From IMG/VR virus record IMGVR_UViG_3300006128_000049, positions 1 to 27,277 of that record: a DNA stretch of 27,277 nucleotides; one strand, 5' to 3'. A program made the translations under genes and the position numbers. Shown here piece after piece: positions 8,332-11,413 of the stretch (position 1 is the stretch's first letter; every line of letters starts with the position of its first letter). The notes under the pieces are model-generated. The model was not told where the DNA came from. It made no database searches and saw only the letters and a list, made by a program, of their open reading frames with translations. This DNA comes from a virus.

Positions 8332-8634
8332 TTACTCCCCTTTAATAACTTCTACTACCGGGTTAGCTAGTGCGTTCGCATATTCTCTACCTTGCATCAG
8401 CGTGCCAACTTCGCCAACACATACCCACCCACGCCATGTCTTGCGATCAACAAGACACTTTGTATACAGCGTTTGTGATGCGATATACGGTGCAATCCTT
8501 ACCCGGTACTTTGGTTTTAATTCTTTCCTACCGGTAGGATTTTCCCGGGCTATGGTTATCAAGTGATACCCCGCTTGAATGATGAGTCCAAACAGTACGC
8601 CCAAACATACATTTGCAATATCGTTTATGTCCAT
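8332..8634 (-). CDS. Membrane-anchored hypothetical protein
   Basis: A 100-residue protein. Residues about 6-27 (IANVCLGVLFGLIIQAGYHL) form one N-terminal membrane span, followed by a basic stretch (ARENPTGRKELKPKYRVR) and a cytoplasmic or periplasmic domain with KTWRGWVCVGEV. AAAGGATAAATC precedes the start. It is the first full gene after a roughly 450-nt leader driven by the promoter at 9126-9098. A palindrome copy (8524-8541) lies within the coding sequence. Function unknown. Confidence 0.68.
   Translation of the reverse strand: MDINDIANVCLGVLFGLIIQAGYHLITIARENPTGRKELKPKYRVRIAPYIASQTLYTKCLVDRKTWRGWVCVGEVGTLMQGREYANALANPVVEVIKGE
8524..8541. repeat. Dispersed 18-bp palindrome, copy 3
   Basis: TTTCCTACCGGTAGGATT, inside the gene for the membrane-anchored protein at 8332-8634. 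The inner 14 bases (CCTACCGGTAGG plus flanking T and A) form a perfect dyad. Confidence 0.68.
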
Positions 8635-9097
8635 GATTTATCCTTTAAAGTTTAAGTTGTTGGTGCGATATACACCCCAATAGATATAGTCTCATAAGTA
8701 CGCCCATGACGTACTTGGCTTTCATACTATACCCATCAGGCTAAATACAGCTTGTGAACGGATACGAGTTGCCCAGTATCCGCATGGTTTATTCTTTGAT
8801 TGCACGTTAGACTTGGTTGTTATTACCTGCCGACTGGCTACGGCCATCTTCTCATGTGTTATGCGATCACATATCTGTATATGGGGAGTCTGAGTGCCCT
8901 TCTTGTTATCAGCGTAATTCCTGCATCACATTTCTCGTATTACATTAGTTCCGAGCGATGGTTTATTAGTCGTGTTGTATGCACGACTGTGCTTAAGTTA
9001 TTTTTAAAGATGTTGTACCGATTAAACTTTCCTACTGGTAGGATAAAAATGAGGAGCCGTTCAGTACAGGTCAAGGCGATACTCAACCATAAGACAT
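8635..9097 (-). ncRNA. Gene-free 460-bp stretch: long structured leader or non-coding RNA
   Basis: Between the promoter at 9126-9098 and the gene starting at 8634 there is no well-supported ORF. Read on the minus strand, the transcript would contain three hairpins with perfect seven-base-pair stems: 8988-8968 (AGTCGTG/CACGACT, 7-nt loop), 8782-8759 (CGGATAC/GTATCCG, 10-nt loop) and 8716-8696 (AAGTACG/CGTACTT, 7-nt loop). It also carries a palindrome copy at 9028-9045. Two tiny overlapping ORFs (8847-8722, 41 codons; 8725-8645, 26 codons) have poor ribosome binding sites. A tandem-hairpin leader, a regulatory RNA or a set of tiny peptides are all possible. It does not match a riboswitch or tRNA that I know. 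Confidence 0.45.
9028..9045. repeat. Dispersed 18-bp palindrome, copy 4
   Basis: TTTCCTACTGGTAGGATA, located about 45-65 bases downstream of the predicted start of the promoter at 9126-9098. In that position a bound protein could act as a roadblock, or the RNA form could fold as a hairpin. Confidence 0.7.
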
Positions 9098-9126
9098 ATT
9101 CTAACATAACATAAGGGTATTGTCAA
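9098..9126 (-). promoter_or_regulatory. Sigma70 promoter, leftward
   Basis: On the minus strand: -35 TTGACA (9126-9121), a 17-base spacer and -10 TAGAAT (9103-9098). The start should fall near 9091, immediately before an ATG at 9090 that opens only a nine-codon ORF. It drives the structured leader and the genes from 8634 leftwards. Confidence 0.78.
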
Positions 9127-9153: not shown

Positions 9154-9468
9154 TTACACTATCCGAACTACAACTACAACCCATCTTTTTAAGGTCGCAC
9201 CGGGTAGTTTGAGGAGTCGCTTGTCGAACATGTACCGCTTCCCAATACGCATACACGCATAGGTTACAGAGTTGCGGATACTTCGGTGCATTTCCCCTGC
9301 GATCATCAGCGACCCTTCATACTCTAACCCTAGTATGGCATCGAGTGCCTTGCCCCTATCCTCAATGAACGGCACAAGTTTTAAGATCTCGCTCTCGTCA
9401 GTGTATTGCTTAAGTATTTCCTCATAGTTGCATACATGCACTACGGCTGTGGCTAATGGCTTAGACAT
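9154..9468 (-). CDS. Small protein, paralogue 3 of a tandem three-gene family
   Basis: A 104-residue protein. Its C-terminal half contains G-S-L-x-I at about 53-57, then SIRNSVTYACMRIGKRY and a hydrophobic end (VVVVVRIV). This follows the same order as the two genes upstream: a G-E/D-S turn, an IR..A..Y helix, G-K-x-F/Y, a basic strand, then a terminal hydrophobic strand. The module resembles small phage proteins (GxSF...GKxFxTR...RVWR type) found near control regions. It is the most diverged of the three. GGGAGA precedes the start. DNA binding is a guess based on size, charge and position beside the control region. Confidence 0.65.
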   Translation of the reverse strand: MSKPLATAVVHVCNYEEILKQYTDESEILKLVPFIEDRGKALDAILGLEYEGSLMIAGEMHRSIRNSVTYACMRIGKRYMFDKRLLKLPGATLKRWVVVVVRIV

Positions 9469-9469
9469 A

Positions 9470-9856
9470 TTATTTCTCCCTTAGTACTTTAAGATATTCG
9501 ACTCGGTTAAATTTAAACTTCTCAGTCCTAAACTCTTTACCGTATGTAGACTTCTGATATGAACAGGCAACTCGAATATTATTTATCAATCCTGCGGGTA
9601 CAGTAAACGATTCTCCTGCACCTAAGAGTTTTAGTTTTGCAAGGGCTGACTTGCCATCACTGATAAGCCGCACACGAGTTGCATTGCGCCTAGAGGTTAG
9701 AGTTTGCAGGGTGGATACAGGGGTATCTGAATCTGGCTTCTCCATATTCTTTGCAACCCGCTCTAATAATACTCGGTGCTTTCGCATACTCTCGGACGCT
9801 TCCCATGCTGATCTATACAGCGGGTCATCCATTGGGTTTATTACGCTATTCTCCAT
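9470..9856 (-). CDS. Small protein, paralogue 2 of a tandem three-gene family
   Basis: A 128-residue protein. The first 65 residues are helical and charged. The C-terminal module (about 75-128) reads LLGAGESFTVPAGL, then IRVACSYQKS, then YGKEFRTEKF, matching the layout in both neighbours. In many phages this small module (GESF followed by a helix and GKKFxTRK...RVWR) occurs alone in proteins of unknown function. The start has a very strong AAGGAGGG site and overlaps the upstream stop by 16 bases. The extra N-terminal helix distinguishes it from its siblings. It is probably a regulatory or DNA-associated protein, low certainty. Confidence 0.68.
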   Translation of the reverse strand: MENSVINPMDDPLYRSAWEASESMRKHRVLLERVAKNMEKPDSDTPVSTLQTLTSRRNATRVRLISDGKSALAKLKLLGAGESFTVPAGLINNIRVACSYQKSTYGKEFRTEKFKFNRVEYLKVLREK

Positions 9857-10062
9857 ATTCTTAGCCCTCCTTGTACTTTACGGGTCTTAAATTTGACACC
9901 AGTCAACTGACTAAATATATTGGCGCTCGTTCTCGCCCGCTGTATGTTGCGCACATCGGTGCAGTCTATCAACACTGAATCACCCACTCCCATCGCTCGC
10001 ATTGTCTCTCTGGGTAGCGTGACTGATCGGTTGTCTTCTATCGGTACATCGTACTCTATCAT
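9841..10062 (-). CDS. Small protein, paralogue 1 of a tandem three-gene family; first gene of the leftward arm
   Basis: A 73-residue protein, MIEYDVPIEDNRSVTLPRET at the start and GLRIWRIA at the end. The middle holds MGVGDSVLID, an arginine-containing helix (IQRARTSANIF) and GVKFKTRK, the fullest example of the module shared by the next two genes. I chose ATG at 10062 because AGGAG lies five bases upstream, and because the longer frame's start at 10140 lies upstream of the promoter (10119-10091) and would not be in the transcript. The RSVTLP segment faintly recalls AbrB/MazE-type DNA-binding strands, but this is weak. Confidence 0.72.
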   Translation of the reverse strand: MIEYDVPIEDNRSVTLPRETMRAMGVGDSVLIDCTDVRNIQRARTSANIFSQLTGVKFKTRKVQGGLRIWRIA

Positions 10063-10090
10063 ATTAGCTCCTATGTTATTTAAGTTTATT

Positions 10091-10119
10091 ATTTTATTTA
10101 TATTTGAATCGATTGTCAA
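10091..10119 (-). promoter_or_regulatory. Sigma70 promoter for the leftward arm
   Basis: On the minus strand: -35 TTGACA (10119-10114), a 17-base spacer and -10 TAAAAT (10096-10091). The expected start is near 10084, giving a leader of about 22 bases before the ATG at 10062. Confidence 0.8.
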
Positions 10120-10146
10120 TAGTGTGTTCCGGTGTTCCATGCGATG

Positions 10147-10684: not shown

Positions 10685-10702
10685 TTTCCTACCGGTAGGA
10701 AA
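10685..10702. repeat. Dispersed 18-bp palindrome, copy 5 (perfect)
   Basis: TTTCCTACCGGTAGGAAA, a perfect dyad that extends to 20 bp (10684-10703). It lies between the two leftward terminators, in DNA that should be little transcribed, which favours a protein-binding site over an RNA hairpin. Confidence 0.8.
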
Positions 10703-10757: not shown

Positions 10758-11267
10758 TTACTCAGAATCTTTTATCTCGTATCCATTAAGTATCAATAAG
10801 TCTTTTATGATATCCAATAATGAACCCTCATCGTTATCATATGATGATTGGATATCGTTTAAGAATTTAATACCATTATCGGTCTTGAGTACCCTTGCAA
10901 GTGCATCAAGTGTAGGGTCATTCTCTGATTTAGATTTAGGTTTCGTAGACTTTACCGAACCCTTAGAACTTGAGAGACTAAATTCTTTACCGGACTCAAC
11001 CGCATCGACAAACGCAGTTACATAGTTCATATAAGTCTTTTTAGACTTCCCGGGTAATGCGATAGTTACAGCATCGAGGCATTGTGCCCGGTATTGGCAT
11101 GTTTTAACTGATTTGCCAAACGCTAATTTTGATTCTCTGAATTGTGCGATTGAATTGTCAATCTTTGCTTTACCCGATTCGAATAGTGATAACCCACTAG
11201 CGAAATCCTTAAACAATGCGATTGTGTCAATCGTTACGTTTGATTTGATTTGATTTGATTTTGACAT
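10758..11267 (-). CDS. Hypothetical protein, isolated leftward gene in the control region
   Basis: A 169-residue protein. Residues 1-90 are helical with a basic surface (KSVKTCQYRAQCLDAV, GKSKKTYMNYVTAFVDAV). A Ser/Lys-rich linker (about 92-115) follows, then an acidic helical C-terminus. It stands alone as a monocistronic unit with its own promoter (11351-11323) and two terminators, between the two genome arms. That placement is typical of regulators or early host-takeover proteins. The first residues (NQIKSNVTI) are encoded by a (TTTGA)4 repeat. No helix-turn-helix is evident to me. It could be the protein that binds the nearby palindromes, but that is a guess. Family not recognised. Confidence 0.72.
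   Translation of the reverse strand: MSKSNQIKSNVTIDTIALFKDFASGLSLFESGKAKIDNSIAQFRESKLAFGKSVKTCQYRAQCLDAVTIALPGKSKKTYMNYVTAFVDAVESGKEFSLSSSKGSVKSTKPKSKSENDPTLDALARVLKTDNGIKFLNDIQSSYDNDEGSLLDIIKDLLILNGYEIKDSE
11239..11258. repeat. Pentanucleotide tandem repeat (TTTGA)4 at a gene start
   Basis: Four perfect copies, followed by a TTTTGA variant, lie in codons 3-10 of the gene at 11267-10758. A change of one unit would shift the frame. Confidence 0.8.
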
Positions 11268-11373: not shown

Positions 11374-11391
11374 TTTCCTACATGTAGGAAA
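11374..11391. repeat. Dispersed 18-bp palindrome, copy 6 (perfect)
   Basis: TTTCCTACATGTAGGAAA, a perfect dyad whose central bases differ from the other copies (CATG for CYGG). It lies just upstream of the promoter at 11351-11323, as expected for an activator or repressor site. Confidence 0.8.
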
Positions 11392-11399
11392 AAATCAAA

Positions 11400-11413
11400 T
11401 CGAGCCAGTTCCC
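11400..11413 (+). repeat. Copy of a dispersed 14-16-bp motif (TCGAGCCAGTTCCC)
   Basis: The 14 bases match 1415-1428 and 6691-6704, where the motif extends to a 16-base identity (TTCGAGCCAGTTCCCT). Those two copies are coding (Gly-Thr-Gly-Ser), while this one is intergenic. Confidence 0.55.

Follow-up and report, generated by a model that had tools for sequence, protein, structure and literature searches.

A predicted structured RNA with a boxA-type leader in a group of uncultivated phages

A gap without genes and its counterparts in relatives

What is encoded between positions 9154 and 8634 of a 27,277-nt fragment of an uncultivated phage (IMGVR_UViG_3300006128_000049, the whole of which is called the window here), where no ORF has any family match and the longest minus-strand ORF is of 55 aa? 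An earlier note, made from the letters of this DNA, had described a gap without a credible gene, and the lack of a family-matched ORF agrees with that description; it had placed there a structured leader or non-coding RNA driven by a sigma70 promoter. The features first needed are these:

9098..9126, minus strand: sigma70 promoter of the RNA, TTGACA-17-TAGAAT, with a counterpart in 28 of 28 members of the group
8660..9091, minus strand: structured untranslated RNA of about 430 nt, running from the predicted start through the 3′ helix, with both ends predicted
8332..8634, minus strand: downstream gene of 100 aa without family match, its start codon about 30 nt past the 3′ domain of the RNA

The promoter combines TTGACA (9126-9121), a 17-nt spacer and TAGAAT (9103-9098, preceded by TG), and agrees with the consensus at 11 of 12 positions, near enough to bear out the earlier reading of the site. 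Taken in isolation it is one of 17 promoter-like sites in a 6-kb stretch, where 14.7 would arise by chance; but a promoter in the same place in every member backs it. No tRNA or tmRNA was found in the 27,277-nt fragment. A leader, perhaps a processed one, is favoured over a separate RNA by a negative result: no terminator-like site turned up between the 3′ end of the RNA and the next gene.

Relatives were recruited from IMG/VR through TerL and the 413-aa gene, many of the contigs being of 48-68 kb, and blastn against them located homologous gaps with 58-80% identity to that of the window. In 23 non-redundant phages the promoter lies downstream of the homologue of the 128-aa gene, and in nearly all of these a TCCTAC/GTAGGA inverted repeat whose centre is 2 nt long comes after it; in L035 and L037 these arms enclose 3 nt. 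L216, L222, L224, L225, L227, L228 and L229 were added by scanning for the pattern of the hairpin that is best conserved. The same gap is present in 27 other IMG/VR phage contigs, which with the window make 28 members. Promoter, boxA (or a boxA-like sequence) and hairpins follow one shared order in all 28 contigs, with the promoter 52-86 nt upstream of the boxA or boxA-like sequence in each, and in 25 of them the phage's own inverted repeat stands between the two. Read in transcript sense, the promoter is followed by one or two upstream hairpins, the repeat hairpin, boxA, a stem, a hairpin of the form CGCU-stem-AGAA, a variable linker, the GCCGUA..CAGUCGGC hairpin, further variable stems and, near the next start codon, the 3′ helix. 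The distance from the CGCU/AGAA hairpin to the GCCGUA hairpin ranges from 64 to 264 nt among members, and the RNA as a whole from 430 to 800 nt.

The RNA was also sought outside this group. A search with model R1, which was built from nearly all of its own matches, gave a single copy at each locus and none in the GGGTCA-type lineages, and is not an independent discovery of the family; under strict filters and without a positive control, the 143 genomes searched from one bacterial class yielded no R1 match. Occurrence in bacteria was rejected on the pattern scan as well, since its 37 matches in bacterial genome contigs compare with an estimated 30 or so by chance, and all were without the neighbouring hairpin and repeat. 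Among the cultured phages of INPHARED, the RNAs of two relatives gave no blastn match, and for the window as query the matches listed had E values of 2 or worse, mostly to PRD1-like phages.

A folded body and its covariation

The structural elements of the body, with the comparison on which each depends, are as follows:

8968..8988, minus strand: stem with changing but paired arms, AGTCGTG-CATACAA-CACGACT, from comparison with relatives
8930..8959, minus strand: conserved hairpin with CGCU-stem-AGAA core, from comparison with relatives
8829..8844, minus strand: conserved hairpin GCCGTAGCCAGTCGGC, with compensatory C-G/U-A and G-C/C-G changes
8759..8782, minus strand: 7-bp hairpin CGGATAC...GTATCCG, known from the window only
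8665..8751, minus strand: 3′ domain, a long imperfect helix kept in relatives; the window has a 7-bp hairpin (8716-8696) inserted in it

The three seven-pair hairpins that had been noticed from the sequence were recovered: the gap holds exactly three 7-bp Watson-Crick stems (8988-8968, 8782-8759 and 8716-8696), against a mean of 0.23 in shuffles, and three were reached in 0.1% of shuffles (P = 0.001). The single-sequence folding energy is unremarkable (z = -1.2), so the case for structure is built on comparison and not on energy. That z-score is what could be said for ordinary intergenic DNA with hairpins by chance, a reading made scarcely credible by the conservation and covariation seen in 27 relatives.

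In the stem that follows boxA, at least six Watson-Crick pairs form in 23 of 27 sequences, as against 5% of shuffles, from about 12 different arm sequences; AGUCGUG/CACGACU in the window is matched elsewhere by GUAGGUG/CACCUAC, AGUCUGU/ACAGACU, GCGCACA/UGUGCGC and AUGCGC/GCGCAU. A first MAFFT alignment placed this variable stem wrongly, and counts from it are conservative. In the plain alignment 81.7% of cells are paired (63.7% in shuffles), with 57 double-change cells; shuffles give 19.3, and no slid control exceeds 17. Such counts do not equal independent events, the rows being related. The model-fitted alignment, which leans towards structure, gives 88.7% paired and 70 double-change cells against 19.9; the variable-length middle of the RNA lies outside the structure model. 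Among individual elements, the outer pairs of the CGCU/AGAA hairpin are A-U/U-A in the window and G-C/C-G in relatives; in the GCCGUA hairpin pairing is complete (100%), two positions being compensated and eight cells showing double changes; and in the 3′ helix, checked in ten members, six of 19 predicted pairs show double changes.

Compensatory changes thus stand far above both shuffled and slid controls in the covariance analysis that the earlier note had proposed, and its suggestion of a structured leader or non-coding RNA gains support from kept position, promoter, motifs and these changes in 27 relatives. On such comparative grounds the gap almost certainly encodes a conserved structured RNA. 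Its folded body is selected for structure and probably functions as an RNA in its own right, whether cut out or acting as a leader.

The same note had raised the alternative that tiny peptides are encoded (8847-8722 and 8725-8645), and these proved to have no homologue in the six frames of relatives. A plus-strand ORF (8800-9114) does give 54 translated matches in 37 loci, which would suit conserved short peptides, but these matches track the conservation of the RNA, and the spacings between conserved elements differ among relatives in all three frames. With homologues missing and frames not maintained, coding by the tiny ORFs was discarded, and that any of the three short peptides is the conserved item appears very improbable.

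Nor does the RNA belong to a catalogued family. The earlier note could name no matching family; an Rfam search gave no match to the window at gathering thresholds, and in seven relatives likewise none over threshold; the sub-threshold matches in L227 lie about 1 kb away from the RNA, and a known RNA family was rejected. The nearest kinds are untranslated RNAs led by boxA and large RNAs of phages, GOLLD and ROOL for example, which are ornate and of unknown function (PMC12286853). The likeness to GOLLD and ROOL lies in being a large structured phage RNA, but here their covariance models, like others in Rfam, did not reach the gathering score, and no tRNA was found in the window. Large structured phage RNAs are few and mostly without known function, and the 28 examples assembled here offer material for structure work.

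boxA and the reading of the leader

boxA is the bacterial signal for non-stop transcription of rRNA: it is bound by host NusB/S10 and renders polymerase resistant to Rho. Its gamma-proteobacterial consensus is GYTCTTTAANA (PMC5725501), and that of a Legionella CRISPR array reads GTTCTTTAAAA; boxA is known to allow polymerase to produce long untranslated RNA (PMC7862264). Of the 11 whole records with the RNA, ten have exact GYTCTTTAANA within the RNA leader, in seven cases (G001, G011, G016, G017, G019, G020 and G021) as the sole exact match of the record; three records without the RNA have no exact match. In L229 the boxA reads GCTCTTTAACA. The corresponding site in the window is:

9002..9012, minus strand: boxA-like sequence CATCTTTAAAA, 9 of 11 positions matching GYTCTTTAANA, exact in most relatives

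There is no exact or one-mismatch copy at this site in the window, CATCTTTAAAA having two mismatches, so that antitermination there may be weak or lost; a leader with GYTCTTTAANA downstream of the promoter is found in the relatives and not in the window itself.

The leaders of rrn operons and CRISPR arrays (PMC5725501, PMC7862264) share with this one a promoter, a hairpin and exact GYTCTTTAANA within about 90 nt, and a long untranslated RNA behind boxA. They differ in that the present leader is phage-encoded, that the folded RNA is neither rRNA nor CRISPR array, and that the boxA of the window is degenerate.

The explanation that we think probable, with considerable room for doubt, is a long structured leader or non-coding RNA that is assisted by boxA and heads the early operon. 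Host RNA polymerase would start at about 9091 and, in most relatives, the nascent RNA would expose the repeat hairpin and then boxA within about 90 nt. Host NusB/S10, bound to boxA, would make polymerase resistant to Rho, and the resulting antitermination would carry transcription across more than 400 nt of folded untranslated RNA and on into the genes downstream. The folded body would be either excised or act as a leader. The conservation, the compensatory changes and the positions of promoter and boxA are observed; transcription, Nus binding and processing are inferred. The link from boxA to host Nus factors gives a testable handle.

A different reading makes the RNA a long 5′ regulatory leader that senses a ligand, a protein or the ribosome and controls downstream translation or premature termination, the likeness to boxA being incidental. 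It would fit the short interval between 3′ domain and start codon, about 30 nt in the window and small in relatives too, without a terminator-like site between RNA and gene. Against it, exact boxA sits in the leader in nearly all of the whole records and is almost absent elsewhere, and the RNA is kept across phages whose downstream genes differ. We regard such a leader as rather unlikely, if still the strongest competitor of the boxA-assisted one.

The inverted repeats of the early operon

The 18-bp palindrome of the earlier note turned out to be a 14-nt inverted repeat, TCCTAC-CA-GTAGGA (9043-9030), with arms of 6+6 and a 2-nt centre; that note had noticed the palindrome site along with hairpins and promoter, but neither the boxA context nor the repeat family. 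The copies in the window are:

9030..9043, minus strand: copy TCCTAC-NN-GTAGGA in the leader
5834..5847, minus strand: copy between two genes, upstream of a 182-aa gene
8526..8539, minus strand: copy inside the 100-aa gene
10687..10700, minus strand: copy right after a terminator-like hairpin behind the 169-aa first gene
11376..11389, minus strand: copy that precedes the promoter of the 169-aa first gene, as palindrome TTTCCTACATGTAGGAAA

Four of these are exact copies of TCCTACYGGTAGGA (plus strand), and the fifth, TCCTACATGTAGGA at 11376, has identical arms and an AT centre. Five whole records (48-65 kb) hold 4-8 exact copies of TCCTACNNGTAGGA, all within one stretch of about 5-8 kb. In each phage a single inverted repeat is present in 4-12 copies, mostly intergenic and none of them outside the early operon; phages of the group that lack the window's repeat sequence carry a repeat of their own, with unrelated arms, at comparable sites. 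Such repeats include CGGGTCA-N3-TGACCCG, CGGGGACA-N3-TGTCCCCG, GTGGGACA-N3-TGTCCCAC, GGCGGAAC-N-GTTCCGCC, CGATTCAG-N-CTGAATCG, TTCATAC-N-GTATGAA and others, and lineage-specific repeats were seen in L104, L105, L108, L114, L128, L151, L152, L172, L003, L076, L085, L216, L225, L227, L229 and further loci. At least four copies of one arm occur in 33 of 68 non-redundant loci, as against at most two in shuffles; the loci without a repeat include structural-gene fragments. Repeat sites lie outside ORFs of at least 60 aa in 128 of 178 cases, compared with 22% of random positions, and they bracket genes, being found around the first gene, around the gene of about 240 aa and before the 413-aa gene.

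How the repeats are read can be approached from their centres and arms. In transcript sense the centre dinucleotide is strand-asymmetric (CC 29 : GG 1; CA 28 : TG 13), and its length is 2 or 3 nt within one phage (L014, L028, L035); a centre that is asymmetric and variable speaks for a site read as RNA. The invariant arms, for their part, favour a dimer that binds DNA. Intrinsic terminators were ruled out, the U-tract preceding and the A-tract following the stem, the reverse of a terminator. As for promoters of the T7 type or hairpin promoters of the N4 type, which would call for a phage single-subunit RNA polymerase, no PF00940 was found in 15 records, and likewise none in control genomes.

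If the repeats were the central element, each would be read by a phage factor, as a place of transcript cleavage, an antitermination hairpin like boxB or an operator in the DNA. The body of the RNA would then in part be spacer, or a unit excised from between two repeats. Their abundance over shuffles, their preference for sites outside ORFs, the copy between promoter and boxA in most members and the CC/GG asymmetry all speak for this. Yet the body covaries by itself at a distance from the repeats, three members have no repeat between promoter and boxA, and invariant arms with a variable centre would also fit a dimeric DNA-binding protein, so that we consider the repeat-centred account distinctly improbable. 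Returning to the boxA-assisted RNA, it is tempting to go further and propose a new class of large phage RNA under antitermination of the rRNA type, bounded in many phages by a lineage-private repeat that punctuates the early operon and is read, by cutting or antitermination, by a co-evolving phage factor. This wider proposal is tentative, and on balance we doubt it; if true, each lineage would have private punctuation while RNA and boxA remain constant. That the arms change completely between lineages while positions stay points to a phage factor reading early transcripts or early DNA.

Lambdoid nut sites consist of boxA and boxB, act with the N protein, and have hairpin arms that are phage-specific. 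The likeness here is a hairpin and boxA early in a phage early transcript, with phage-specific arms; the differences are that the hairpin precedes boxA, that it exists in many copies, and that the arms are invariant and the loop variable. The first gene (10758-11267), as candidate for an N-like protein, has no match in PHROG (E<0.001), Pfam, NCBIfam or by PDB fold; its 169-aa product gives a helical model (pTM 0.50), and the search for a PDB fold match gave it no identity as a repeat-binding protein either.

In temperate phages the CIRs of phiC31 are operator-like sites scattered between genes, serving immunity repressors. Mycobacteriophage stoperators are likewise dispersed operator-like sites (PMC9283540). 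Dispersal between genes is common to both and to the present repeats, but theirs serve temperate immunity repressors, and operators of that kind were ruled against here by the lack of a tyrosine integrase (PF00589) in 15 group records of 48-68 kb. Cluster K mycobacteriophages have 17-bp imperfect repeats (ESAS) adjoining the 13-bp start-associated sequence (SAS) GGGATAGGAGCCC (PMC3203893), which resemble the present repeats in being limited to the non-structural region, with a subcluster-specific consensus and a variable spacer; here the arms are near-perfect and of 6-13 bp, with centres of 0-5 nt.

Some other sequences of the window and its relatives may be recorded. A DUF2201 metallopeptidase/VWA-like gene adjoins one that by eye, and without a family match, resembles a MoxR-type ATPase (720-1883 and 2150-3235, minus strand). 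A 99-aa protein (9841-10140, minus strand), not found in relatives, has by eye an AbrB-like stretch VTLPRETMRAMGVGDSVLI and no family match. The 14-mer GGGAACTGGCTCGA occurs three times on the minus strand of the window (1415-1428, 6691-6704 and 11400-11413), and in most relatives GGGAACTGG(T/C) also directly precedes the first repeat. L010, L051, L101, L044, L009 and L031 have a conserved hairpin of the AAAACGG...GUGUGCCGUCUCACAC type immediately behind the repeat that lies upstream of the 413-aa gene, and L104, L105 and L108 a similar one; it is perhaps a second structured RNA or a pseudoknot. Finally, among the lineages with other repeats, L108, L128, L151, L172 and L003 share a conserved first-gene leader (AUCGGUUAGGG...) between promoter and repeat, and in several of these leaders a GTTCTT-like sequence follows the repeat.
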